DNA from: a virus
Length of the DNA stretch: 41,969 bases
Virus record (IMG/VR): IMGVR_UViG_3300028864_000046
Span: 1-41,969 of that record
Direction: 5' to 3' (one strand)
In this document: one piece after another, positions 1 to 41,969 of the stretch
How positions within the stretch are numbered: position 1 is the first letter of the stretch
Layout: each line of letters begins with the position of its first letter
Made by a program: the position numbers and the translations under genes
The notes under the pieces: model-generated
What the model was told of the DNA's origin: nothing
Database searches by the model: none
The model's input: the letters and a program-made list of their open reading frames with translations, nothing else

Positions 1-65
1 GACACAATGAGCAACACTTTAATACGAGCGCAAAAACAAGGCATTAACCATAGGTGTGTGTTAGC
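1..65 (+). repeat. 3' end of an attC-like recombination site (cut by window edge)
   Basis: Positions 50-65 read ATAGGTGTGTGTTAGC. This matches the right arm of the complete sites at 39560-39692 and 40189-40319 (ATAGGCGTGTGTTAGC) with one substitution. The left arm (GCTAAC...GGCTAT) would lie outside the window. The sequence right after the site, TTAGCAGCATACC, nearly repeats the sequence after the third complete site at 40975 (TTAGCAGTCATACC). Integron attC identity is inferred from the arm structure; no integron integrase is visible. Confidence 0.5.
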
Positions 66-118
66 AGCATACCGCTTGTCTTTCGTATCAAAAAACTTTT
101 TGCGGTTGCTGCTAACAA
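59..118. repeat. Inverted repeat (hairpin) after the attC-like end
   Basis: TGTTAGCAGCA(t)ACCGC at 59-75 is complementary to GCGGTTGCTGCTAACA at 103-118, leaving a loop of about 27 nt. The arms are 16 bp with one bulged base. The order GTTAGC...GCTAAC is opposite to that of the attC-like sites, so this is the junction between the partial site and what follows. It could be a very short empty cassette or a folded regulatory element upstream of the gene at 148. Confidence 0.45.
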
Positions 119-147
119 TATTATATGCGTAGTTCAATTTTTTGACC

Positions 148-393
148 ATGTCTAAACACACTGAAATAAGCGATTTATACTTCAAAGCCTATATAGAAGG
201 TGATATAGAAGACCATGAGATGGTTCAATTTATTGACCAAGCAATGTTGTATTTAGGAGCTAAAACATTGGCTGCTCAGGCTAAATATAAAGGAGTTGAT
301 TATAATGTAATAAAGAAACAAAAGAAGCGACAATTCAATCCATTATACACATTCGTTGTCGGTGGTGTTGAGTTTGTCAAGAATAATGATTAG
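148..393 (+). CDS. Small protein with possible helix-turn-helix
   Basis: An 81-residue protein of unknown function. I chose the ATG at 148 over an in-frame TTG two codons upstream because ATG starts dominate the window. The middle (about residues 37-58, LAAQAKYKGVDYNVIKKQKK) has the spacing of an excisionase/MerR-type helix-turn-helix, in which a short alanine-rich helix is followed by a basic recognition helix. This is pattern resemblance only. The gene stands alone, with an attC-like end upstream and a perfect stem-loop at 421-445 downstream. It could be the last gene of a cassette array or a small phage regulator. Confidence 0.55.
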   Translation: MSKHTEISDLYFKAYIEGDIEDHEMVQFIDQAMLYLGAKTLAAQAKYKGVDYNVIKKQKKRQFNPLYTFVVGGVEFVKNND

Positions 394-8094: not shown

Positions 8095-9821
8095 TGGAAA
8101 ATTACTACGAGGAAGATATTTCGCTAAATTCATTTCAGATTACCGCTCAGCTTTTTAAAGCTAAGATAAAATATATGATTGCCGGTCGTGCAACCGGTAA
8201 ATCATTTATAAATGGTGCTGAAGTAGATGAGAATATTCGTCTCATGCCTCGTGGAATCACAACTATTACTCAGGACACATTAGGTCAGGCATTGACCAAA
8301 ACACTTCCGTCCACATTCAAATATCTTGAGATGCTTGGTTACAAGAAGTATGATCCTAAAACAAAATCAGGTGATTACGTTGTTTGTTGCAAGCCTCCTG
8401 ATCATTTTTATACTCCGTATGAAAAAGTAATGAGCTACGAGCACATGATTACGTGTAGCAACGGTCATGCGCTTTATTTGCTTTCTCAAAAGGCTGGCGC
8501 TCGTGGTCCTAATGCTGACTATAATATCACCGATGAGGCTTTGACCATTGACAAAGTAAAGTTTGACCAGGAAGCGGCAGCTACTAATCGTGGGAATGAA
8601 GAGATTTGGGGCTTTAAGCGGAAAGATGGCAAGCCAAAGCTTGATAAACATCACGGTTCAACGTTTACTTCTTCCATGGGCTATCTTCCGGAACACAAAT
8701 GGATGACTAATCCGGCTCAATATTATGAAGATGAAGCTGGGATTCGTATATTTGAAATTTGGAATAAAATCGTAAATATCCAACTGCAGCTAATAAAGGC
8801 TAAAGTTGCCAACGATGAAAAATTAGCCGTTGAATTATGGCATGAAACTGTACGTTTGCGCAAGCAAATGACCCCATTTGTGAGTAAGGATGGCGTTTTA
8901 TTCATGTTATCAAATGCATTTGACAATATTCATAATATCGGGTTCTCTTACATCCTGAAAATGTACCAGGTCATGGACATGGTCACATTTATGATTGAGA
9001 TCCTGAATTACTACATTGACAAAGTAACCGATTGTTACTATGCTATTGACGAACGACATGTTTACTACAAAGCAGATAATGACGACTATATCCGTGGATT
9101 AGCTGATAATAACAACTTTGATTGGAGCGAGCTGCAGAAACGACACTCATTGTATGATGCTGATTGTGATCAAAACAAACCTATCGAAATTACTCCGGAT
9201 TGGGGCTCATCAAAGATTTCTCTCATAGAAGTTGCTCAGGAGCGCAACTTTGATTTTGTTACAGGACTTATTCAACGTACAGATAACAATATCAATGAGT
9301 TCTTTGTAAAGCCGGATGATAATCCTGATACAATGATCAACACATTGATGGATGAGTTCTGTCATTACTATCGCTTTCATAAGAAAAAGATTGTTGTATA
9401 TACTATTGATACTTATGGAGATATTAGATTAGCTAACTCCAAGAAGACATACAATCAACATGCTATATCAAGGCTTGAGCGTAATGGTTGGAAGGTAGAA
9501 ACACGTAAGCATCCGGGCAAAGAGCCTCCACACAATGATAAGTATCTACTTTGGCGTTATCTATTGCATGAGACAGATCCATCACTCCCAAAGAAGCGAT
9601 TCAATGGAGCGAAGTGTAAGTATACGCTCATATCCATGAATAACACATCAGTTATATCGAAGCCTAACGGAACATTTGAAAAGAATAAAAAGAGTGAAGC
9701 ACAAACCTCCGTGCTTCCAGAAGAAGCAACACACTTCGGTGATGCTGTCGATAAGAGGATATGGACTAAGTATGGTAAAAACCTCAAGAAAGGATCTACA
9801 TTCGTAGACCCACGCATATAG
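8094..9821 (+). CDS. terL: Terminase large subunit (packaging ATPase-nuclease)
   Basis: A 575-residue protein. Walker A is IAGRATGKS at residues 29-37, and a Walker-B-like hydrophobic strand ending in Asp-Glu (ADYNITDEA) lies near residue 145. The C-terminal RNase-H-like nuclease shows acidic positions in TPDWGSSKISL, VYTIDTYGD and THFGDAVDKR. It hydrolyses ATP to translocate DNA into the prohead and cuts concatemers. I chose the ATG at 8094, which overlaps the stop of the tiny membrane ORF; ten extra codons upstream would run inside that ORF. The position after the capsid genes rather than before them is unusual for tailed phages. Confidence 0.9.
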   Translation: MENYYEEDISLNSFQITAQLFKAKIKYMIAGRATGKSFINGAEVDENIRLMPRGITTITQDTLGQALTKTLPSTFKYLEMLGYKKYDPKTKSGDYVVCCKPPDHFYTPYEKVMSYEHMITCSNGHALYLLSQKAGARGPNADYNITDEALTIDKVKFDQEAAATNRGNEEIWGFKRKDGKPKLDKHHGSTFTSSMGYLPEHKWMTNPAQYYEDEAGIRIFEIWNKIVNIQLQLIKAKVANDEKLAVELWHETVRLRKQMTPFVSKDGVLFMLSNAFDNIHNIGFSYILKMYQVMDMVTFMIEILNYYIDKVTDCYYAIDERHVYYKADNDDYIRGLADNNNFDWSELQKRHSLYDADCDQNKPIEITPDWGSSKISLIEVAQERNFDFVTGLIQRTDNNINEFFVKPDDNPDTMINTLMDEFCHYYRFHKKKIVVYTIDTYGDIRLANSKKTYNQHAISRLERNGWKVETRKHPGKEPPHNDKYLLWRYLLHETDPSLPKKRFNGAKCKYTLISMNNTSVISKPNGTFEKNKKSEAQTSVLPEEATHFGDAVDKRIWTKYGKNLKKGSTFVDPRI

Positions 9822-9919
9822 TAATCGCACAACCAAATCATTTCGATGTGCTCAAGCACAGTCATTACACATTCACTATCCCTCGGATCCGGGGATAGTG
9901 AAAGAGTAATGTGCGATTA
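9822..9919. repeat. Nested inverted repeat after terL
   Basis: The outer arms TAATCGCACA (9822-9831) and TGTGCGATTA (9910-9919) are perfect 10-bp complements. The inner arms TTCACTATCCC (9872-9882) and GGGATAGTGAA (9892-9902) form an 11-bp perfect hairpin, and a small TGTGCT/AGCACA hairpin lies between. There is no T tract, so this is not a simple terminator. It starts at the first base after the terL stop and may mark the edge of the inserted block or a DNA-level signal. Confidence 0.6.
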
Positions 9920-10451
9920 TCATTCATCATTCGTGCGCTCATGATGAAGAATATATGAATAAGGACTGCTTTCGTGTATAGGACTGCTTTTAATTGTTAA
10001 TAGGCGGTGTTGTATTCATATATCCTGTTAAAAAGTGCGGTTTTGAGTGCCTTTTCGATAGGGCAGGGTGTGCTTTGTTGTCAAAGTTTGCAACATAGTT
10101 GCAGGGATTTGGAGAGTTTAAGACGTTGAATGTTAAATAAATAGTAATTTATTAAGGTTTTTTAGTGTTTAGAAAAATATAGCGATTGCATAGATTCTGT
10201 TTTTTGAATAATAAATGAATTTTCGACTTCGCACAACAAAAAATAATTTGATTTAAACAGCTTCGGTAATTTTATTATTTATGTACAAATTATTGTTAGT
10301 AATGTTGATAAAGAGTATTTAATATATTGATATACAGTATTATAATGTGTTTTATGTTGATATTTTTTTGTATCTTTGTATTGTCAAAAGGTAGTCGAGC
10401 CACCTAATGACATAAATAAACTATTTTATTAACAACAAAAATTTCAAATTT
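9920..10451. other. Gene-free spacer with repeats and a host-type promoter
   Basis: No convincing gene in 530 nt. It contains a direct repeat AGGACTGCTTT at about 9962 and 9981, and an inverted pair ATATATGAATA (about 9952) / TATTCATATAT (about 10013). Very AT-rich DNA leads into the promoter at 10371. Base composition differs from the coding regions on either side, and the block separates the packaging operon from the portal operon, consistent with an insertion. Confidence 0.5.
10371..10378 (+). promoter_or_regulatory. Host-type -7 box TATCTTTG
   Basis: TATCTTTG at 10371-10378 fits the Bacteroidota housekeeping -7 element. It lacks the TGTCCTTT box of the late promoters. It would drive the three-gene insert operon at 10452-11537 with a leader of about 65 nt, and hence independently of late phage control. 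Confidence 0.6.
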
Positions 10452-30610: not shown

Positions 30611-31786
30611 TTATACCTTGAATTTATTGAAGCAATCAATTCCACGCTGTTTTTTGCTCTCAAGAACATGAGCATAAATCAAAGTGTCTTTAATATCCGA
30701 ATGTCCCAAAATATCTTTCAGTGAGTTTAGATCACTATTTTCAGACAGGTGATAAGTAGCAAAAGTGTGACGGCCTGTTTTATGGGTTATTTTCTTGTTT
30801 ATTTCGGCTATAGTGGCTATTTCTTTCAAATACCGATTCATTGTTTGCTCTGCCGGAAGATTTTCGAATATCAGACCTTTCTTTCTATTCCCGACGATGT
30901 TGTGTACCAAGTTACGCAATGGCTTTGATACCGGCACTGTAATTAGTTCAGGTTTGCTATTTCGGGTTTTCATCCGCCAATAACCAAAGGAAGTATCTGT
31001 AAATTGCTCCAGTGTCATTTTTTTTGCATCACCAATGTGTTGCGAACCAAAGCACATAAATAAGAATACCTGTAAGGTTTTATAATACTTCAGTTCTAAA
31101 TCGCCAACACGATATTGCTTGAGTAATGCTTGTAGTTCCGCTTCCTCCAGGTAGGTGTAATTTGGTTTTGTCCGTAAAATATGAAATTCGTCAAATGGAT
31201 TTTCGTCCATATAACCCGCCTTGTATGCTGCTTTCACATACTTTCTAATTATAGATAAGTTCTTATATGCTGTATTGTCATTATTCTTATTGTCTTTCCG
31301 CAAATAGGTATAATATGATGCAATAAAATCGAGGTCAATATCGTCGAAATGTAAATCGGGTGCAAATTCCTTCAGCTTTTTGAAAGTTGAAACATGAGTT
31401 TGCATGGTTGTATCTTCTATCATTCTCGATGCCTTTTTTCTTTGATCTTCATAAAAGGTATAGAAATTTTCAAAATCATCAGGTCTATTATATGATTTTA
31501 AAAAACCTGCTCGCGTGAGAACTTTGTTTTTAAGCCTATACTTAACAAATACGGAATTTATCCGGGATAAAATATTCCCAAGGATAAGATTCTTATCCGA
31601 TGCATCTTTATCCGATACTCTTACCTGTTGGGATTTTTCATTCCAATTTTTTACTTCACACAAAATTTTAGTAGAAAAATTCACCTTCTCTCTATTGACA
31701 TAGAATGAAACCCACACATAGCCGGATTTCTTTTCTTTGTTGTCACACCTTAAATATAGTTTTACGGTAATCATGGCGGTATACAT
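30611..31786 (-). CDS. int: Phage integrase (tyrosine recombinase, Bacteroidota type)
   Basis: A 391-residue protein. It has an N-terminal arm-binding-like beta region (residues 1-50), a SAM-like core-binding domain (about 105-200) and the catalytic domain. Visible catalytic positions are HKTGRHTF (Arg339, His340), LGH (His362) and Tyr371 in IYAHV. The first catalytic Arg, usually in a G-L-R-x-S-D context, is not evident; the segment reads CFGSQHIGDA, as in IntDOT-type enzymes where Arg I is replaced. An alternative start is the ATG four codons in (31774). It integrates and excises the phage; its gene faces the tail operon. Confidence 0.85.
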   Translation of the reverse strand: MYTAMITVKLYLRCDNKEKKSGYVWVSFYVNREKVNFSTKILCEVKNWNEKSQQVRVSDKDASDKNLILGNILSRINSVFVKYRLKNKVLTRAGFLKSYNRPDDFENFYTFYEDQRKKASRMIEDTTMQTHVSTFKKLKEFAPDLHFDDIDLDFIASYYTYLRKDNKNNDNTAYKNLSIIRKYVKAAYKAGYMDENPFDEFHILRTKPNYTYLEEAELQALLKQYRVGDLELKYYKTLQVFLFMCFGSQHIGDAKKMTLEQFTDTSFGYWRMKTRNSKPELITVPVSKPLRNLVHNIVGNRKKGLIFENLPAEQTMNRYLKEIATIAEINKKITHKTGRHTFATYHLSENSDLNSLKDILGHSDIKDTLIYAHVLESKKQRGIDCFNKFKV

Positions 31787-34687: not shown

Positions 34688-35048
34688 ATACGTATTTAAG
34701 TACATTAATGAAAAACCGCGTCCGCAAATTGCAAAAGATATTGGACGTTCAGAACTCGCCCTGGATCTTTATCTACACCGGCACAGAAATGATCCTAGAT
34801 TACTTGATAAAAAGAATCTGCTGATTCAATTACTTCAGAAAAAGTTTAAGGATATAACCTGTTTTACTCCCAATCGTTCGTTTTTTGACGAAGTGAAAAT
34901 AGGACAAAAAAGGTACTGGAGCATTTATAAAGGCACAGATCAAATAACCGGAGAAGAATTAAAACGTATTGCTGATTACTTAGATGTGACATTGGAAGGT
35001 GTTTACGAAGCACGACAAACATCTCTTTTTGAAAATATAACCAAATGA
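34659..35048 (+). CDS. Helix-turn-helix DNA-binding protein
   Basis: A 129-residue protein with two possible DNA-binding parts. Residues 1-45 (WSKAQTRYVFKYINEKPRPQIAKDIGRSELALDLYLHRHR) fit a homeodomain/SANT-like helix-turn-helix. Residues 80-120 (VKIGQKRYWSIYKGTDQITGEELKRIADYLDVTLE) resemble the end of an XRE domain. It ends at the start of the primase-helicase gene with a 4-nt overlap (ATGA), so it may help load or regulate replication, which is inference. Confidence 0.6.
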   Translation: MKHWSKAQTRYVFKYINEKPRPQIAKDIGRSELALDLYLHRHRNDPRLLDKKNLLIQLLQKKFKDITCFTPNRSFFDEVKIGQKRYWSIYKGTDQITGEELKRIADYLDVTLEGVYEARQTSLFENITK

Positions 35049-38000
35049 GCCAAATATCCCCAGATATAATTTCCAAAATTAAAGATAAATCCGATATTGT
35101 TCAGGTTATCGGGAAGTCTTTAAAACTCACAAAACACGGTCGTAATTACGTTGGTATATGTCCATTTCACTCGGATAAAGCACCATCGCTGACCGTTTCA
35201 CCACAAAAAAATATTTACACTTGTTTTGCCTGTGGAGCTACAGGTGATGTGATAAACTTTGTAAAAGAGCATGAGCGAGTTTCATTTTTCGAAGCCGTGA
35301 AAAGTCTGGCCAAAGATTGTCATATCGAACTTCCGGAAGTAAGCATGACACCCGAAGACACGGCTAGGCAAAAACAGCGGGAATCGGTTTTTATCGTTCT
35401 GCAGGAAAGTCAAAACCAATTTTCGGAAAATTTGAAATCGTTTGAATTTGCAACGGAATATGTAAAAGTTACCCGCCAACTTACCGACGATACTATTGAA
35501 ACATTCCGGATTGGTTACGCTAATCAGGATAATCAGATTACCCGCGAATTTCCAAAACGCGGATACAACTTCGATAATTTATTAGCGGCAGGAATGACGG
35601 GTATTTCTGAAGAAAAGAAATTTCAATACGATACATTCCGTCAGCGAATCACATTCCCTTATTTGGATATGCATGGTCGCCCGATAGGTTTTACCGGCCG
35701 AATAACAGACAATGAAGCCAAAACTGCTAAATATCTCAATACGCCGGATACACTGGTGTTCAATAAAGGGAATGTGCTGTTTGGTTTATTCCAGGCAAAA
35801 GAATCTATTATCCGCAAAAACAAAGCTTATCTGGTAGAAGGTCAATTTGATGTGGCTTCCATTTACCAACGTGGTGTTCAGAATATAATTGCCGGGTCAG
35901 GTACTGCGCTAACCGATGCACAGGCACGGTTGCTAAAACGATTTACCAATACAGTGGTAGGTATTTATGATCCTGACGCTGCCGGATTAAAAGCCAGTAT
36001 CTCCAATGCAAAAACATTCCTGGCACATGGGTTCGATGTGCGTGCCATTATGTTACCAGAAGGACAGGATCCTGATGATTTTGCCAAAGCTTCAGTAAAT
36101 CAGGATTTATCCGTATTGCTTCAAAATAGAGAACTATCTTTTATTGAATATTTTTTTGAAGCTAAGAAAGTAGCCAAAGTTTCAGACTTTGAAAGTGAAC
36201 AACTGCTCGATCAGATTTGCGAATGCATTTCGGTAGTGCCAAGTAAGAGTCTTCGTGAAAAGTATTTAATAAGTGTATCAAATACATTTAATATCTCGTT
36301 AAATTTAATAAAAGATAAAGCCAAACCAACAAAAGAACTTAAAGTAGAAAATTGGAAACATGGGTTTTACGGATTAGAGGATGCGGCCGAACTAATGGAA
36401 GATGATGAGGAGTCGGATTGTTGGTTGGTTTTTGATCAGAAAAATTTTATTGAATCATTTTCTGAAACTCCAACAATATTAGCCGTTGGAAATCCAACAT
36501 TAACCGATTTGCAGTCATTACGACCAGTTACAAGCAAATTGATTGTAAATTCAATTAAAACTATTGAGCCAACAGAAGCCGGAGAACCTAAACCATTGCT
36601 ATTATTGAAAAATATGCATAAAAACGGATTTGATATTTCCGTTGGTGATGGTGATAAAACAATGAGTTTCTGTGATTTTTATATAGAAAAATATGGAGAG
36701 CTACTTAGTGGGGAAAAATCGGAAGATAAAATTACAGATAGTACAAAAATATCTGAAATTATTGGCAAGTGTGCTGAAGTGATATCTCAGTTAGATGCAA
36801 CCGTAAGAGTAGTTATTCAAGATGTTTATGCTAAAAAGCTGAACATGAAAGCAACTGCTTTCGAAAAAGTAATGAAACCGTTCCTGGCCAAAAAGAAAGA
36901 TAAAGCCATGATCGACAATCAACGTATGGGTGAGCTTGGACAGGCTATTGATACTGAAATTATTCCTGAGTACGTTGAAAAAGATAAAGTGCTTTGGAAT
37001 AACTATCTGAAATGGGGATTTTATCCATTGGCTGACAAAGATGGTCGTTATTTTACCTATATGTTCAAGAATCAAAACGGTGCTAGTAGTCATTCTCCTG
37101 TGTCGGATTTCTTTATCAAACCATTGCTCCATATTTTTGACGAAAGCAACGACGATGCCAATAATAAACGTGTGATCCAACTTTGCCACATGGATAAACG
37201 CCTGGATAAATACGTAGAGTGGAAATCGGGAATATTTGCTGTTCTACCAAAAGTACATGAAAAATTGGTCAATGTAGGTCCTTACAATTATTTCGGGACG
37301 GTAGATCAATACAAGCGCATTTGGATGAACATGAGTTACGGATTTACAAAGTGCTATCCAACCGGAATACTTGGACAACATAACGATGGTTTTTTTGTGT
37401 TTGGTAATGCCATATTTCACAAAGTGCAAGGTAAGTATCAGATTGATTATGTAGATGATTTGGGAGTAGTGACACATGATGACACTAATTATTATCTTCC
37501 GGCATTTTCAAAAATTCATCTGGATAGAAAAAACGACAGTGATAAAAACAAATACAAATTAGCACGAAATTTTATGTATAAAGAAATAAATGAAGATAAA
37601 CAATTGCCTTTCAAACGTTGGGCTGAGTTAATGGACAAAGTTTATACGGTAAATGATAATGGTAAATGGGCTATTTTGTACGCCATAACATGCGGTTTCC
37701 GTGACTTTATTTTCGAAAACCGTGGAGAATTCACGGCGCCGTTTTTTATTGGTCCTACAAGCTCCGGAAAGTCAAAAATTGCGGAATCGATCCGTAACTT
37801 ATACATGGATTATAAATCGGCTGCATTCAATTTGAACACCGGTACTCCGGCAGCTTTTTTTATGTTTATCGAAAGCTTGAGGAATCTTCCTATTGTAATG
37901 GAAGAATACAACGACAATACGATTAACCCTATGATTTTTCAGGCTCTAAAAGCAGCCACTTTAGACGGACAAGGGCGTATAAAAGTGGCTGATGCTGCCA

Positions 38001-38989
38001 GTAAAACGATGGATAGCTCAGAGATAAATGCATCCCTTATATTACTAGGCCAGGAAGCACCGCAAAAGGATGATGGATCGTTGGCCAACCGCTGTATTAT
38101 TTGCGATGTTCCGTCGCGCGACTTTACAGAAGAAGAAAGTGCAATTTTTGAAGAATTGAAAAATTCTGAGAAATCCGGACTTTCAAATATTCTCCTTCAG
38201 GTGCTTGAGCTTCGCGAAATATACGAACGTCACTATCTCACCATTCTAGCCGATGAAACTAAAAAGCTCAAGGAATCGGTAAAAGTAAATGTCTCGAATA
38301 CCGAAGGGCTGATGCGTATCGTCAACGCTTGTGCATTGATGACAGCAACTTGTAAATTATTGGAGGAACATGCTCCACACATGCAACTACCTTTTTCTTA
38401 TTCCGAATTTTTACCCATTGCTCAGCAAAAGGTATTTAGCCAAATAGAACGCATATCCAGCACTAATAAACTATCTACTTACTTCCAAACCATGTCGACG
38501 TTGATTACTCATGAAAAGATAAAAATCGGACGTGAGCTCAAAATTAGCGAAACAACAAGTGTAACACGTTTGCTTTCAGGCAAAAAGAAAGAAGAGGTTT
38601 TATTCAATGTTGGAACTAAAGTTCTTTATATTGATTTTGAGGGAGTTTACTCACTTTATCAGAAAGAAATCGGAAGTAATGAGGCTCTTAGCCGTCAATC
38701 GCTTACGGCTTATTTCAACAGTAATCAGGCATTTATAGGTTTATGCAACGCAACCCGCTTCAAATGGATCGTACCGGAACATGCCGGATCTTCCGTTGAA
38801 GCCGAAGTTGCACTAGATGGCGAATCGGTAGTAACCAATACAAACGCACGTATGAGAATGACTGATAAAACAAAAACAACATCGGCTTATATGTTTAACT
38901 ACAACATATTGAAAGGTCTAGTAGATATAGATTTTGAGCGAATAGAAGAAACAGGAGTAGTACCTGGAGAAAGTGATTTGCCATTTTGA
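35045..38989 (+). CDS. Primase-helicase (CHC2 zinc finger, TOPRIM, ATPase)
   Basis: A 1314-residue fusion. Residues 36-75 hold a CHC2 zinc finger (Cys39, His42, Cys60, Cys63). TOPRIM motifs follow: EGQFD near 265 and DPDAAG near 309. The C-terminal half has Walker A GPTSSGKS at 903-910 and a Walker-B-like IVMEEYND near 950, with an SF3/AAA-like layout. It would make primers and unwind DNA at the phage fork. Standard TOPRIM enzymes have D-x-D in a DGDAAG setting; here it is DPDAAG, which still keeps both aspartates. It is the largest early gene and is followed directly by the ASCH gene. Confidence 0.85.
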   Translation: MSQISPDIISKIKDKSDIVQVIGKSLKLTKHGRNYVGICPFHSDKAPSLTVSPQKNIYTCFACGATGDVINFVKEHERVSFFEAVKSLAKDCHIELPEVSMTPEDTARQKQRESVFIVLQESQNQFSENLKSFEFATEYVKVTRQLTDDTIETFRIGYANQDNQITREFPKRGYNFDNLLAAGMTGISEEKKFQYDTFRQRITFPYLDMHGRPIGFTGRITDNEAKTAKYLNTPDTLVFNKGNVLFGLFQAKESIIRKNKAYLVEGQFDVASIYQRGVQNIIAGSGTALTDAQARLLKRFTNTVVGIYDPDAAGLKASISNAKTFLAHGFDVRAIMLPEGQDPDDFAKASVNQDLSVLLQNRELSFIEYFFEAKKVAKVSDFESEQLLDQICECISVVPSKSLREKYLISVSNTFNISLNLIKDKAKPTKELKVENWKHGFYGLEDAAELMEDDEESDCWLVFDQKNFIESFSETPTILAVGNPTLTDLQSLRPVTSKLIVNSIKTIEPTEAGEPKPLLLLKNMHKNGFDISVGDGDKTMSFCDFYIEKYGELLSGEKSEDKITDSTKISEIIGKCAEVISQLDATVRVVIQDVYAKKLNMKATAFEKVMKPFLAKKKDKAMIDNQRMGELGQAIDTEIIPEYVEKDKVLWNNYLKWGFYPLADKDGRYFTYMFKNQNGASSHSPVSDFFIKPLLHIFDESNDDANNKRVIQLCHMDKRLDKYVEWKSGIFAVLPKVHEKLVNVGPYNYFGTVDQYKRIWMNMSYGFTKCYPTGILGQHNDGFFVFGNAIFHKVQGKYQIDYVDDLGVVTHDDTNYYLPAFSKIHLDRKNDSDKNKYKLARNFMYKEINEDKQLPFKRWAELMDKVYTVNDNGKWAILYAITCGFRDFIFENRGEFTAPFFIGPTSSGKSKIAESIRNLYMDYKSAAFNLNTGTPAAFFMFIESLRNLPIVMEEYNDNTINPMIFQALKAATLDGQGRIKVADAASKTMDSSEINASLILLGQEAPQKDDGSLANRCIICDVPSRDFTEEESAIFEELKNSEKSGLSNILLQVLELREIYERHYLTILADETKKLKESVKVNVSNTEGLMRIVNACALMTATCKLLEEHAPHMQLPFSYSEFLPIAQQKVFSQIERISSTNKLSTYFQTMSTLITHEKIKIGRELKISETTSVTRLLSGKKKEEVLFNVGTKVLYIDFEGVYSLYQKEIGSNEALSRQSLTAYFNSNQAFIGLCNATRFKWIVPEHAGSSVEAEVALDGESVVTNTNARMRMTDKTKTTSAYMFNYNILKGLVDIDFERIEETGVVPGESDLPF

Positions 38990-39007
38990 AAATAACATAT
39001 TCATATT

Positions 39008-39538
39008 ATGAAAGCAATTACAATTAAACAGCCATGGGCTTCACTTATTTGCGAAGGGATTAAAGATATTGAAAATCGTTCGTGGAGAACTAAATTTCGA
39101 GGTCGTATTTTGATTCATGCTTCCGCAAATTCTATTAAATATTTTAGTGCTTTAGATTTTTTCGGTGAAGAAAGACTTAAAGTGATTAAAGAAAAAACTG
39201 GTTATGTTCCTGAACTGCCAATATCATCTATTATCGGATCAGTAGAAATAATTGATTGCGTCAGCAAAACTTATAATAGAAAAGGAGATACAACGTCTAT
39301 TTGGGCGGACGAAGGTCAATGGCACTGGGTGCTAGCAAACCCGATTCTATTTCCTGAACCAATTTCCGTAAAAGGAAAACAATCATTTTGGGACTATCCA
39401 AATATTTTAGCTGAACCCGAAGAAAAAAAAGGCGAACTATTTTGTCATTGTCAATTACCCGTAAAAGAAGAAAATCAAGTTGCTAGATTTATAACACATT
39501 ATCGTTGTAGATACTGCGGTGGTCTTTGGTATAAATAA
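39008..39538 (+). CDS. ASCH-domain protein with C-terminal zinc ribbon
   Basis: A 176-residue protein. Residues 1-130 form an ASCH/PUA-like domain: IKQPWASLICEGIKDIENRSW, then strands RGRILIHAS and IIGSVEIIDC, and WHWVLANP. Residues 144-176 have paired cysteines (CHC at 146-148, CRYC at 167-170), a zinc-ribbon-like extension. ASCH proteins bind RNA or modified nucleotides. It lies 18 nt after the primase gene and just before the first complete attC-like site, so it is either the native phage gene or the first cassette. Confidence 0.7.
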   Translation: MKAITIKQPWASLICEGIKDIENRSWRTKFRGRILIHASANSIKYFSALDFFGEERLKVIKEKTGYVPELPISSIIGSVEIIDCVSKTYNRKGDTTSIWADEGQWHWVLANPILFPEPISVKGKQSFWDYPNILAEPEEKKGELFCHCQLPVKEENQVARFITHYRCRYCGGLWYK

Positions 39539-39559
39539 ACTGCGTTTTTTTAGCGCAGC

Positions 39560-39692
39560 GCCTAACGAACGAGGCTATCCGCTTTTGGCGGTTTGCGGGC
39601 AGTCGACTTGTCGACAAGCAAAATGGTAAATACGGGAGCCGAAACCTGCTAAACGCACGGAATAGCTAATGGCGGATAGGCGTGTGTTAGCT
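39560..39692 (+). repeat. attC-like site A
   Basis: The left arm starts GCCTAACG at 39560, with GGCTATCCGC at 39573-39582. The right arm is GCGGATAGGC at 39672-39681, then GTGTGTTAGC to 39691. CTATCCGC and GCGGATAG pair fully, with one G opposite G at the next base; an inner GTCGAC/GTCGAC hairpin is at 39602-39615. The order RYYYAAC-like...GTTA and the two stems with offset mismatches fit the folded structure of integron attC sites. Length about 133 bp. Confidence 0.6.
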
Positions 39693-39725
39693 TCCAGTGC
39701 TTTCTTAATCTTTTAAATCAACATT

Positions 39726-40181
39726 ATGATTGTAAATAAAGAATTAGCCAATTCAAAAGGCTGTTTGCAAAAAGATAAGTGGGAAACTCCACATAAGATC
39801 TTTAATCAACTTAATCAACTATACAATTTTACTCTTGATCCGGCTTGCGAAATTCATACAGCTAAATGCAATAGGTTTTTTACAGAGCTTGATAACTCAC
39901 TTATAAAAGATTGGTCAAACGAGATCGTTTTTTTAAATCCGCCATACTCGAGAGGAAATATAGATCTTTTCATGCAAAAATGCTATGAAGAAAGTTTAAA
40001 AGGAACTAAGATTGTAGCTTTAATTCCAGTATCAACATCCTCGAAATGGTGGCATAATTTCGTATGGAATAAAGCAAAGATCCATTTTTATAAAGGTCGT
40101 ATTCGTTTTGTTGGCGCACCATTTACCGCACCATTTTCGAGTTGCCTTGCAATTTACAATTTACCGCTTCCGCCTCTTTAG
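39726..40181 (+). CDS. Phage-type DNA N6-adenine methyltransferase
   Basis: A 151-residue protein of the short phage Dam type. It has DKWETP near residues 17-22, the SAM-side strand FTLDPACE near 35-42, catalytic NPPY at 71-74, and GRIRFVGAPFTAPFSS near the end. It would transfer a methyl group from SAM to adenine N6 and protect phage DNA from host restriction. It is the only gene between attC-like sites A and B, forming a cassette of about 628 bp (39687-40314), and the gene ends 7 nt before site B. Confidence 0.8.
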   Translation: MIVNKELANSKGCLQKDKWETPHKIFNQLNQLYNFTLDPACEIHTAKCNRFFTELDNSLIKDWSNEIVFLNPPYSRGNIDLFMQKCYEESLKGTKIVALIPVSTSSKWWHNFVWNKAKIHFYKGRIRFVGAPFTAPFSSCLAIYNLPLPPL

Positions 40182-40188
40182 CATTGAA

Positions 40189-40319
40189 GCTAACGACCGA
40201 GGCTATGGGAATTTGGCGGTATGCGGGAGCATTCGCTGTCGTGAAACGACAAAGTGAATGCGGGAGCAAAACTGCCGGAATGCACGTCAGCCAGCCAATG
40301 AACATAGGCGTGTGTTAGC
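40189..40319 (+). repeat. attC-like site B
   Basis: GCTAACGACCGA at 40189, then GGCTATG (40201-40207). The right arm is CATAGGC (40303-40309), then GTGTGTTAGC to 40319. The stem has the same G-G mismatch position as site A. An inner hairpin CATTC...GAATG encloses GTCGT/ACGAC at 40230-40261. Length 131 bp. Confidence 0.6.
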
Positions 40320-40393
40320 GGGTCGTTATTTATTTTTCGTTTTAATTGTCCAAGTTTTGGACACTATTTTGAACAATTTAATTTCAATTATAT

Positions 40394-40900
40394 ATGAAAA
40401 CTTATGTAATCACAGTTTCAAGAAAATTTCCAACAACTCATAAAAGAACTGGAGAGCCAACATTCTTTATTGAAAAGATTTTTGGTGGCTTTAAACAAAT
40501 AATTCCGTGTCAACTATGCGATTTTGAAAAATTATGTAGTGGGAATTGCACCAAAAACTACGTTAATAAAAATCCTAAAATTCATACTATTCGTCAAAAT
40601 GTCGAATTATGGCAAAAACGAATTTCTGAAATTCAAAAAGGAAATGCGATTCTTTCAATTCGATATTGGTCGGGAAAACCTTATAATTCAAAACAAGTCG
40701 AAATTTGTCAACTTGATAAAAATTCAGGAATTGGACTTGAAGAAGTTATAATTCCATGTATGAATGATATTGACCATATAAAACAACTTGCAATGAATGA
40801 CGGTCTTTCACTCGAAGATTTTGAAGAATGGTTCAAAAAATACGACTTTTCAAAATCGCTTGCAATTATCCATTTCACAAAGTTCCGTTATTTTTTATAA
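40394..40900 (+). CDS. PUA/ASCH-like hypothetical protein (cassette gene)
   Basis: A 168-residue protein. The N-terminus (YVITVSRKFPTTHKRTGEPTFF) is followed by a CQLCDF...CSGNC cluster near 39-52, and then KIHTIRQNVELWQKRISEIQKG, AILSIRYWSGKPYNSKQ and a C-terminal helix plus strand. The KIHTIR...LS-x-R-x-WSGKPY pattern resembles ASCH/PUA-like proteins common in Bacteroidota phages, a resemblance from memory. It is the sole gene between attC-like sites B and C (cassette 40315-40974, about 660 bp). A short GTCCAA/TTGGAC hairpin is at 40347-40360, before its ATG. Confidence 0.55.
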   Translation: MKTYVITVSRKFPTTHKRTGEPTFFIEKIFGGFKQIIPCQLCDFEKLCSGNCTKNYVNKNPKIHTIRQNVELWQKRISEIQKGNAILSIRYWSGKPYNSKQVEICQLDKNSGIGLEEVIIPCMNDIDHIKQLAMNDGLSLEDFEEWFKKYDFSKSLAIIHFTKFRYFL

Positions 40901-40905
40901 TGCCC

Positions 40906-40979
40906 GCTAACATTAAGGCTATTGTTTAGCCTCTTTGAAAATGTCAGCATTTGAGGCTAAATTATAGCCCTGTGTTAGC
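40906..40979 (+). repeat. attC-like site C (short)
   Basis: GCTAAC (40906-40911) and GTTAGC (40974-40979) are the outer cores. GGCTAT (40917-40922) pairs with ATAGCC (40964-40969), and TTTAGCCTC (40925-40933) pairs perfectly with GAGGCTAAA (40953-40961). At 74 bp it is the most compact and cleanest folded site. It shares the outer cores and the GTGTTAGC right end with sites A and B. Confidence 0.65.
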
Positions 40980-41004
40980 AGTCATACCATTTCTTTCTTA
41001 CAAG

Positions 41005-41028
41005 CGTTCTTTGAAATTTTGAGAGTAT
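41005..41028 (+). repeat. Left 24-bp inverted repeat
   Basis: A perfect 24-bp sequence beginning CGTTCTTTGAAATTTT and ending GAGAGTAT. Its exact reverse complement is at 41902-41925, bracketing three genes. It lies 25 nt after attC-like site C. Confidence 0.75.
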
Positions 41029-41047
41029 AAAGTTAAATGATTATCAT

Positions 41048-41103
41048 ATATGAAAACTTTAACTATAAATGTTTTCGTATATGAAAACAAACATCTATAT
41101 TTG
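41048..41103 (+). promoter_or_regulatory. Host-type promoter with possible operator
   Basis: The -7 box TATATTTG is at 41096-41103. Upstream, ATATGAAAAC occurs at 41048 and 41079, the second within the palindrome GTTTTC-gtatat-GAAAAC (41071-41088). A repeat at the -33 position suggests an operator, possibly for the HTH protein encoded at 41715. Transcription would start near 41110. Confidence 0.55.
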
Positions 41104-41127
41104 CATATCATTTAAAACGAAAACGAT

Positions 41128-41475
41128 ATGAAAACTATTAAAGACATTCTTACAGAAAACAGAGACAGCGTTATTAGTTCAATCAAATTTTGTTTTAAAG
41201 TTTATAGAGCTGACGAAATCAGAACTAAAATGATTGAATTTCTTGCTTATGCTGAAAAATACGGAAACGTAGAAAGATTAGAAAATAGCAAAAGAGTAAA
41301 ATCAGACTTGAAAGATATAGTTTGTCACATGGCTATCGAACAAAAACGTGAAGAAAAAAGACTTTTCAATTTGACTACTTACGGAATTGAAAATCCAACA
41401 ATTGCAGATATGCAAGCACACGCACACCAAGACGAAAAATTTAATTTTCTAAAGAAAGAATGGATTAAATATTAA
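41128..41475 (+). CDS. Hypothetical protein (inverted-repeat block gene 1)
   Basis: A 115-residue, highly helical and charged protein (K, E, R rich). Helices are predicted at residues 8-25, 29-44, 50-75 and 88-110. No known motif is present, and there are no membrane spans. It is the first gene after the promoter at 41096. Its role is unknown; its block contains an HTH gene and is bounded by inverted repeats, which suggests an accessory module. Confidence 0.55.
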   Translation: MKTIKDILTENRDSVISSIKFCFKVYRADEIRTKMIEFLAYAEKYGNVERLENSKRVKSDLKDIVCHMAIEQKREEKRLFNLTTYGIENPTIADMQAHAHQDEKFNFLKKEWIKY

Positions 41476-41502
41476 TAGTTATAAATTTTAAAAATTACAA
41501 TT

Positions 41503-41718
41503 ATGGAAGCAACTTATTATGTTATCGCAATCATGTACGGACAAAACACAGAGTATTGGAATAGCTCATTGAAAGCTGACGATTACACAGTTAAAATGAT
41601 TGAAAATGCAGAGGGTTTTGGTTCGGTAGAAGCTGCTGAAAAAGAGCTTGAAAACGCTGTAAAACCTTACGGAATTTCAAAAGGTTGGAATGTTACTTAT
41701 TCAATTGACGAAGCATGA
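41503..41718 (+). CDS. Hypothetical protein (inverted-repeat block gene 2)
   Basis: A 71-residue protein with a short beta strand at the start (YYVIAIMYGQ), an acidic helix in the middle (EAAEKELENAV) and a C-terminal strand (WNVTYSID). Compact alpha/beta fold, no motif recognised. Its stop overlaps the ATG of the HTH gene (ATGA at 41715-41718), so the two are translated together. Confidence 0.55.
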   Translation: MEATYYVIAIMYGQNTEYWNSSLKADDYTVKMIENAEGFGSVEAAEKELENAVKPYGISKGWNVTYSIDEA

Positions 41719-41897
41719 CAATCCGAGAATCAATTATCTATTTTCAGGATTTAGCAAACATATCAAATGCCACAATGTGCAATGCGATAGAAACTACTCC
41801 TGGTAATTATAGCTCATTCCGAGCTGGACGAAGAAACCTGACATGGGAGCAACTTCAAAAAGCTATTGATTTTCTAGAACTGAAAATCACAAAATAA
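41715..41897 (+). CDS. Short XRE-like HTH protein
   Basis: A 60-residue protein with a single helix-turn-helix: residues 10-45 (FQDLANISNATMCNAIETTPGNYSSFRAGRRNLTWEQL) follow the XRE pattern, with recognition helix PGNYSSFRAG and then the L-x-W-x-x-L helix. It is too short for a dimerisation domain, so it may bind alone or as a weak dimer. It is a likely autoregulator of this block through the palindrome at 41071-41088. Confidence 0.65.
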   Translation: MTIRESIIYFQDLANISNATMCNAIETTPGNYSSFRAGRRNLTWEQLQKAIDFLELKITK

Positions 41898-41901
41898 TAA
41901 C

Positions 41902-41925
41902 ATACTCTCAAAATTTCAAAGAACG
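41902..41925 (-). repeat. Right 24-bp inverted repeat
   Basis: Exact reverse complement of 41005-41028 (starts ATACTCTCAAAA, ends AAAGAACG). Its last 4 bases are also the start of the terminator stem at 41922. It begins 5 nt after the HTH gene stop. Confidence 0.75.
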
Positions 41926-41961
41926 ACCGGATTAGCAACCCCGGTCGTTGTTTTTTTTTTT
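41922..41961 (+). terminator. Rho-independent terminator
   Basis: AACGACCGG (41922-41930) pairs with CCGGTCGTT (41941-41949) across a 10-nt loop, followed by G and about eleven T. It ends the three-gene block. Confidence 0.85.
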
Positions 41962-41969
41962 GGTTTGTG

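Follow-up and report, generated by a model that had tools for sequence, protein, structure and literature searches.

Can a phage carry an array of mobile gene cassettes without encoding the enzyme that would move them? The window analysed here, the whole stretch of 41,969 nt of a linear IMG/VR virus record (IMGVR_UViG_3300028864_000046), raises this question near its right end, where folded sites alternate with small genes. Our reading, which we hold with high confidence, is that the window contains an integrase-less array of mobile cassettes from an integron-like system of Bacteroidota, moved by the recombinase of a host or a co-infecting phage, and exchanged by phages with bacteria and among themselves.

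Folded sites and genes in the window

The three folded sites of the original prediction (A, B and C) are all present in the sequence, and each is matched by R1, a covariance model built from 22 diverse sites (Table 1). The scores of A and B hold partly by construction, because both are rows of the R1 training alignment; C is not. The model also picks up a site D at the left edge of the window and many more sites in phages and bacteria. An Rfam scan at a relaxed threshold gave no match at A, B or C, so that no described RNA family covers them, and BLAST against 50,697 phage records returned 0 matches. Among the 22 diverse sites, 91% of the stem cells were paired and 29 cells showed double-sided covariation, against 9.3 in shuffled data; slid or shuffled pairings did not give this covariation. 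Folded as a single strand, C did much better than its shuffles (z of −6.3 and −7.5) and B moderately better (z about −2.5), but A showed no significant gain when folded alone (z of −1.3 and −0.7).

Table 1. Features of the window discussed in the text (crossovers are predicted; a slash marks the cut).
Feature	Position	Strand	Remarks
Site A, attC-like hairpin	39563..39689	-	crossover between 39565 and 39566; R1 match 39561-39692, 103 bits, E=8e-26 (training row)
Site B, attC-like hairpin	40191..40317	-	crossover between 40193 and 40194; R1 match 40189-40320, 128 bits, E=2e-32 (training row)
Site C, short form of hairpin (about 70-75 nt)	40908..40977	-	crossover between 40910 and 40911; R1 match 40906-40980, 23 bits, E=2.5e-4
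Site D, right half	1..63	-	left half past right end of contig
D unit body, 55 nt, without gene	61..115		ends ...TTGCTGCTAA/ where L132 diverges
Cassette 1 (628 bp), hairpin A and Dam gene	39566..40193		ends TTAGCTTC / GAAGCTAA complementary
Cassette 2 (717 bp), hairpin B and 168-aa protein gene	40194..40910		ends TTAGCGGG / CCCGCTAA complementary
Cassette 3, hairpin C, three small ORFs and terminator-like hairpin	40911..41969		runs past contig end
DNA N6-adenine methyltransferase (Dam, PF05869)	39726..40181	+	Pfam E=1.7e-30; phrog_111 DNA methyltransferase
168-aa protein, phrog_8581, function not assigned	40394..40900	+	homologue forms a cassette elsewhere in L134/L135/L140
ASCH-domain protein, left flank of array	39008..39538	+	Pfam ASCH E=2.9e-7
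DnaG-type primase/helicase, phage marker adjoining array	35045..38989	+	Pfam
Small phage ORF, right flank of array	142..393	+	found in L129/L130; L132 has no DNA match at this place
Tyrosine integrase of the phage, Arm-DNA-bind_5/SAM_5 kind	30611..31786	-	Pfam and tree

The fourth right end noticed at position 65 is the right half of site D. Its left half lies just beyond the right end of the window in the near-identical contigs L006 and L008, where the L006 sequence is identical to that of the related phage L130 over 98/98 nt. The whole site can be seen in L130, in which a PAPS-reductase-like gene (phrog_424) lies between the two halves, in the hairpin loop; the equivalent slot of the phage L132 holds a DNA methyltransferase. 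The hairpin loop of D is a site turned into a cargo slot (L130:4972-5968; L132 around 9400-10400), with different cargo in the two phages. Pairing of the D arms had an energy of −30.6 against a shuffled mean of −20.0, and gives modest support by itself because the best of 500 shuffles reached the same energy. With A, B, C and D, the window phage has the make-up of a phage CALIN, with two or more attC-like sites but no integron integrase. The absence of a visible IntI had been noted, and the only tyrosine integrase of the window is of the Arm-DNA-bind_5/SAM_5 kind. It is very distant from the recombinases associated with the arrays described below and hence probably not the cassette enzyme; the window phage encodes no recombinase of that array-associated group.

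The cargo had been described as an adenine methyltransferase and a PUA/ASCH-like protein. The first is a Dam enzyme, for which a putative role in anti-restriction is plausible, but the ASCH domain belongs to the flanking protein and not to the 168-aa protein between B and C, which had 0 Pfam hits. The ASCH gene itself has no site on its left and no matching cassette start. A homologue of the Dam protein in L156 (77%) has no sites beside it and is uninformative. In cassette 3, a perfect inverted repeat of 24 nt (41005-41028 and 41902-41925) flanks the three small ORFs, the last of which (MTIRESII...) resembles an ORF in the array of phage L095 (3695-3877). Elsewhere, the intergenic sequence at 663-970 contains several copies of a TGTAGGTCG-like motif on both strands within about 300 bp, an iteron- or operator-like arrangement.

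The unit, its cut and its hairpin

Units were compared by their ends: the bases that follow GTTA at the unit start were matched with those preceding TAAC at the unit end, the latter taken as their reverse complement. In 95 unique pairs of neighbouring sites, start and end matched over a mean of 4.78 nt, compared with 0.92 nt in shuffled pairs (maximum 1.41 in 1000) and 0.91 nt between the two arms of one site. A chance match was ruled out by the shuffles. The match covers 5 nt past TTA at 92–95% per position, followed by a bulge of 1–3 nt, 3–4 more bases and T-runs. The window's own units are likewise complementary at their ends (Table 1). Since this complementarity holds across the 95 units and in the window, we regard the cassette as a unit cut at the TTA core.

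These results agree with the predicted attC-like logic of single-gene cassettes: as in integrons, the array consists of single-gene cassettes with a folded attC-like site each, and the cut falls between G and TTA as at attC. The predicted cassette lengths were about 628 and 660 bp; the first is correct, while the second becomes 717 bp when measured from crossover to crossover (TAA/C). The core of the family has a fixed GTTA followed by variable bases. It was said to depart from GTTRRRY, which is true of B and C but not of A, which reads GTTAGGC in its true orientation.

Which gene does a hairpin belong to? Where homologous bodies occur in differing contexts, the left hairpin was better conserved than the right one in 13/13 and 36/41 comparisons, which overlap and are therefore not all independent. 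Hence, the hairpin belongs to the gene on its right, giving the cassettes 39566-40193 (Dam) and 40194-40910. Because the left hairpin travels with the body, the site in its functional orientation reads along the window's minus strand, GCTAACACACGCCTAT...ATAGCCTCGGTCG/TTAGC; on the plus strand, site A reads TAAC...GTTA. This is the opposite of the orientation and hairpin-gene assignment originally given. A unit with gene and hairpin on the plus strand and the cut at its right end was ruled out by the ownership test and by the placement of the recombinase. A comparison of the 168-aa gene cassette among phages only adds nothing to the ownership test, because its left and right hairpins diverged about equally (63% and 62%).

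In bacterial arrays, the gene lies upstream of its own hairpin on the same strand in 124/134 cases (124:10), as in integrons. Phage arrays have the gene antisense to its own hairpin in 15/17 cases (15:2). In the IMG/VR contig L090, the array genes, including one for a large secreted-type protein, have the bacterial orientation, and this contig is probably bacterial or prophage-flanking sequence.

A recombinase linked to the arrays

In four genomes (G003, G005, G019 and G023), the contig that bears the sites also encodes a tyrosine recombinase of 560–576 aa. The clearest layout is an element on a 3.16-Mb contig of G050, where the recombinase is followed by a palindrome, by G/TTATGCAC and then by mostly single-gene cassettes, all in the same direction and with a hairpin after each. 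A 1576-aa protein encoded in the first cassette region of this element (L144:2751-7481) looks, by eye, similar to sacsin-type ATPases at its start and is possibly defence cargo. A putative attI was recognised in five genomes as a sequence ending in G/TTA between the recombinase and the first cassette, palindromic in several of them.

Sites and recombinase also tend to occur together. Among 150 genomes of the family of G050, sites were found in 18/19 genomes with the recombinase and in 20/131 without it (p=7e-12), and among 298 genomes from the order of the Myroides genome G021 the numbers were 46/84 and 14/214 (p=7e-19); both p-values are optimistic because the genomes are related. The genomes with sites but without the recombinase (20/131 and 14/214) may be incomplete MAGs, may have lost the recombinase or may use another enzyme. 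The genome G027 (L141 and L142), which forms one long contig, has a large cluster with long hairpins of up to about 217 nt and had no recombinase at the threshold used; its sites may outlive their enzyme or use another one. In all 30 of the 30 linked pairs (same contig, within about 15 kb; counted by hand), the recombinase was on the attI side of the array. A C-terminal fragment of the recombinase (G018:C95), located on the other side of a site, was left out of this count.

The long forms of the recombinase carry three N-terminal repeats with the order beta-beta-alpha-beta-beta-alpha, for which we found no Pfam family and no firm fold match. A W...WxxP motif suggested that these repeats are HARP-like; Pfam gave nothing in this respect, and Foldseek gave weak hits to archaeal XPB helicases (E=0.04).

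Is this enzyme an integron integrase? According to PMC9668308, which refers to Messier and Roy, integron integrases are marked by an additional IntI-specific domain in the region of patch III. An insertion of 31+10 residues was present in four IntI proteins and absent from the array-type and candidate recombinases, and the array recombinase does not have the IntI-specific domain. It scored about 210 bits with TIGR02249, below the cut-off of 265, and its best NCBIfam model was XerA_Arch (218 and 236 bits, cut-off 220). In a tree with only 4 IntI rows, the new group, IntI and Xer each occupied one side of a branch (support 91/82, 100/100 and 100/98, respectively), which places the array recombinase outside the IntI clade and apart from XerC/XerD, whose rows form their own group.

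An alternative explanation is that the sites are ordinary attC sites on which a true IntI somewhere in the hosts acts, and that the phage array is a plain CALIN. An ordinary integron would have the same anatomy and the same cut, the C-terminal SPLD motif that the array recombinase has in common with IntI points to kinship, as does IntI4 (2a3v, E=6e-48) as its best solved relative together with XerA, and IntI1 is able to recombine phage attC sites, including those of a Polaribacter phage with methyltransferase cassettes (PMC9892861). However, an IntI above the cut-off occurred in only one of the 26 site-bearing genomes, a Sulfuricella-labelled bin, and the array enzyme lacks the IntI-specific insertion and sits on a separate branch. 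We therefore consider this alternative improbable. A host integrase had been suggested as the inserting enzyme; the recombinase that is linked to the sites is Xer/IntI-like and not IntI. Units, exact boundaries, changes of context, linkage and co-occurrence of the recombinase, and the missing domain can all be read at the sequence level, where it is strongly supported that the array system works like an integron. If the integron family is defined by IntI, the array system lies outside it.

Exchange of cassettes and comparison with known systems

A wider scan with exact and gapped site patterns found the sites on 12 IMG/VR contigs; GTDB genomes gave 77 stretches, most of them from Paludibacter MAGs in which the copies lie in tandem. 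In all, the family is present in dozens of Bacteroidota genomes and in resistance regions of Empedobacter and Myroides, and site B has a DNA match of 80% in Empedobacter plasmids, beside catB. The same sites occur with different cargo in Bacteroidota genomes, in line with the suggested origin of the phage cassettes in a Bacteroidota host pool; the host assignment is based on sites and cassettes in common with MAG contigs, some of which are probably mis-binned.

Natural comparisons break precisely at the cut, in agreement with the predicted boundary at the G/TTA core. The bacterial array L051 and the phage L134 have a common hairpin and a body of about 130–150 nt with ~97% identity, which begins exactly at TAAC, and the sequence to the left of it is unrelated. 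Likewise, the end of the D unit (window 6-115) is 97% identical in L132, whose primase is 91% identical to that of the window, and the two diverge right after TTGCTGCTAA (after TAA). L130 equals the window from position 1 rightward and carries another array and module upstream of D: right of D the phages are identical, left of D their modules are wholly different (L130:1-5853 versus window 35000-41969). For this reason, arrays may serve as module-exchange points. In L134, L135 and L140, a homologue of the 168-aa gene is part of an array of four sites that lies on the opposite side of the primase and adjoins a recombinase. This recombinase belongs to the array-associated group, and its coding sequence is broken into two reading frames (L134:6450-7289; also in L135 and L140). 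Genes that always stay together with intact flanks, which would have spoken against mobility, were not what we saw: relatives carry other genes or have the same gene relocated.

Could homologous recombination between hairpins of similar sequence account for most cassette movement, with no dedicated enzyme involved? Many hairpins are >90% alike, RecA could shuffle arrays, and a whole module adjoining an array distinguishes L130 from the window. Yet unrelated flanks are joined exactly at TAA/C, with the left end of the hairpin as a sharp edge, and integration in Riemerella proceeds without flanking homology (PMC13148043), which makes this explanation very unlikely. Least likely of all is a role of the hairpins as non-recombining bidirectional terminators or REP-like repeats that separate phage genes: they are intergenic with T-runs on both sides, and short forms such as C look terminator-like, but this idea, under which a hairpin with a T-run would stand alone without boundary variation, leaves no room for start-end complementarity over a whole unit, contexts that change exactly at the cut, a recombinase placed consistently on one side or attI-like junctions.

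We therefore return to cassettes moved by a dedicated recombinase, for which we propose the following mechanism. A cassette consists of one gene and an imperfect hairpin of about 130 nt, whose site, in minus-strand orientation, ends in ...G/TTAN5, and the cut separates G from TTA, as it does at attC. In the excised circle, the complementary ends would be joined into a longer cruciform, and a host tyrosine recombinase, or one from a co-infecting phage, would recombine this cruciform with another hairpin or, alternatively, with a palindromic attI-like site beside the recombinase gene. The candidate recombinase is Xer/IntI-like, without the IntI-specific domain and, in many hosts, with as many as three additional repeats at its N-terminus. 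Presumably the array recombinase performs the reaction, and one folded strand is its probable substrate. Phages would acquire cassettes and retain mainly those with the gene along phage transcription, such that transcription direction may select for the reversed phage genes, and cassettes would be traded between phages and bacteria and among phages. Traffic between bacteria and phages is seen here at near-identical sequence and with exact boundaries.

Several resistance genes have the same kind of ends. In Myroides and Empedobacter (L120 and L010), tet(X2) starts with TTATGTGCCATTTTTGAATGACAATGCG and ends with GGCACATAA/C and a hairpin; the region L120:1037-2351 shows tet(X2) with cassette ends of the site family. 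In Myroides, the tet(X) start TTATGTGCC comes directly after ...CCCG/, and in Acinetobacter (L157) it follows TpnF and a palindrome, after ...CCACTTG/. In the latter, tet(X3) begins at the predicted cut beside TpnF (L157:5001-7073). TpnF belongs to the new recombinase group: its catalytic part shares 68% identity with that of a Paludibacter recombinase, and in the tree it falls among the Paludibacter enzymes; TpnF DNA had no match in E. coli genomes. The genes lnu(H), found in L010, and arr also adjoin hairpins of the family.

The tpnF-tet(X3)-ISCR2 arrangement of Acinetobacter plasmids has been published as an ISCR2 transposition unit (PMC7722449). It resembles our system in having a catalytic relative, TpnF, and tet(X3) at the predicted cut, whereas the paper does not read it as a recombinase plus its first cassette. 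Such a reading would account for the way tpnF and tet(X) lie together on clinical plasmids. A 2026 paper on Riemerella shows homology-free integration of aph(3')-IVb along with 27 bp upstream and 140 bp downstream, which have an attC-like fold, by a mechanism that it describes as not yet elucidated (PMC13148043). Its aph(3')-IVb, lnu(H) and blaRATA share with our family an attC-like 3' region of about 140 bp and site-specific integration, although the paper names neither a recombinase nor a site family. The system described here is a candidate mechanism for this open question of homology-free insertion of resistance genes in Riemerella and relatives.

Integrons have been reported from Bacteroidota (PMC9668308). 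In open-licence PMC texts, we did not find the array recombinase or the site family named. We lean towards the view that Bacteroidota have their own lineage of integron-like platforms, with a recombinase that lacks the IntI domain and in many cases carries N-terminal repeats that may help to read folded DNA. This lineage would be missed by standard finders, would be the source of mobilised tet(X), lnu(H) and other resistance genes, and would be used by phages with reversed cassettes and even with genes in hairpin loops. Such a parallel platform would be overlooked by current surveys, because integron finders look for IntI.

Phage CALINs are known as attC-like arrays in virulent and temperate phages, several with DNA methyltransferase cassettes, such as Polaribacter phage P12002L; these sites were found with IntI/attC tools, and 5/6 of those tested worked with IntI1 (PMC9892861). 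The window family is similar in being phage-borne and attC-like with DNA methyltransferase cargo, but differs in going with a different recombinase, in phage genes that are reversed relative to their hairpins and in one gene placed in a hairpin loop. With XerA, XerC and XerD, the array recombinase shares its catalytic domain, the absence of the IntI insertion and XerA_Arch as best model; unlike them, it has an SPLD motif as in IntI, N-terminal repeats and a linkage to cassette arrays.

Another close parallel is the integron itself, in its sedentary chromosomal type, where the recombinase gene likewise stands upstream of the array next to an att site (a putative one in our system), and where single-gene cassettes follow in tandem, each closed by a folded site, with a cut at G/TT and complementary cassette ends. 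In contrast to integrons, the recombinase has no IntI-specific insertion, carries up to three N-terminal repeats, forms its own branch and is often co-directional with the cassettes; the core is GTTA plus variable bases and not always GTTRRRY, and the end complementarity extends past the 7-bp box through the bulge. The system offers a natural test of whether recombination of folded sites needs the IntI-specific domain.
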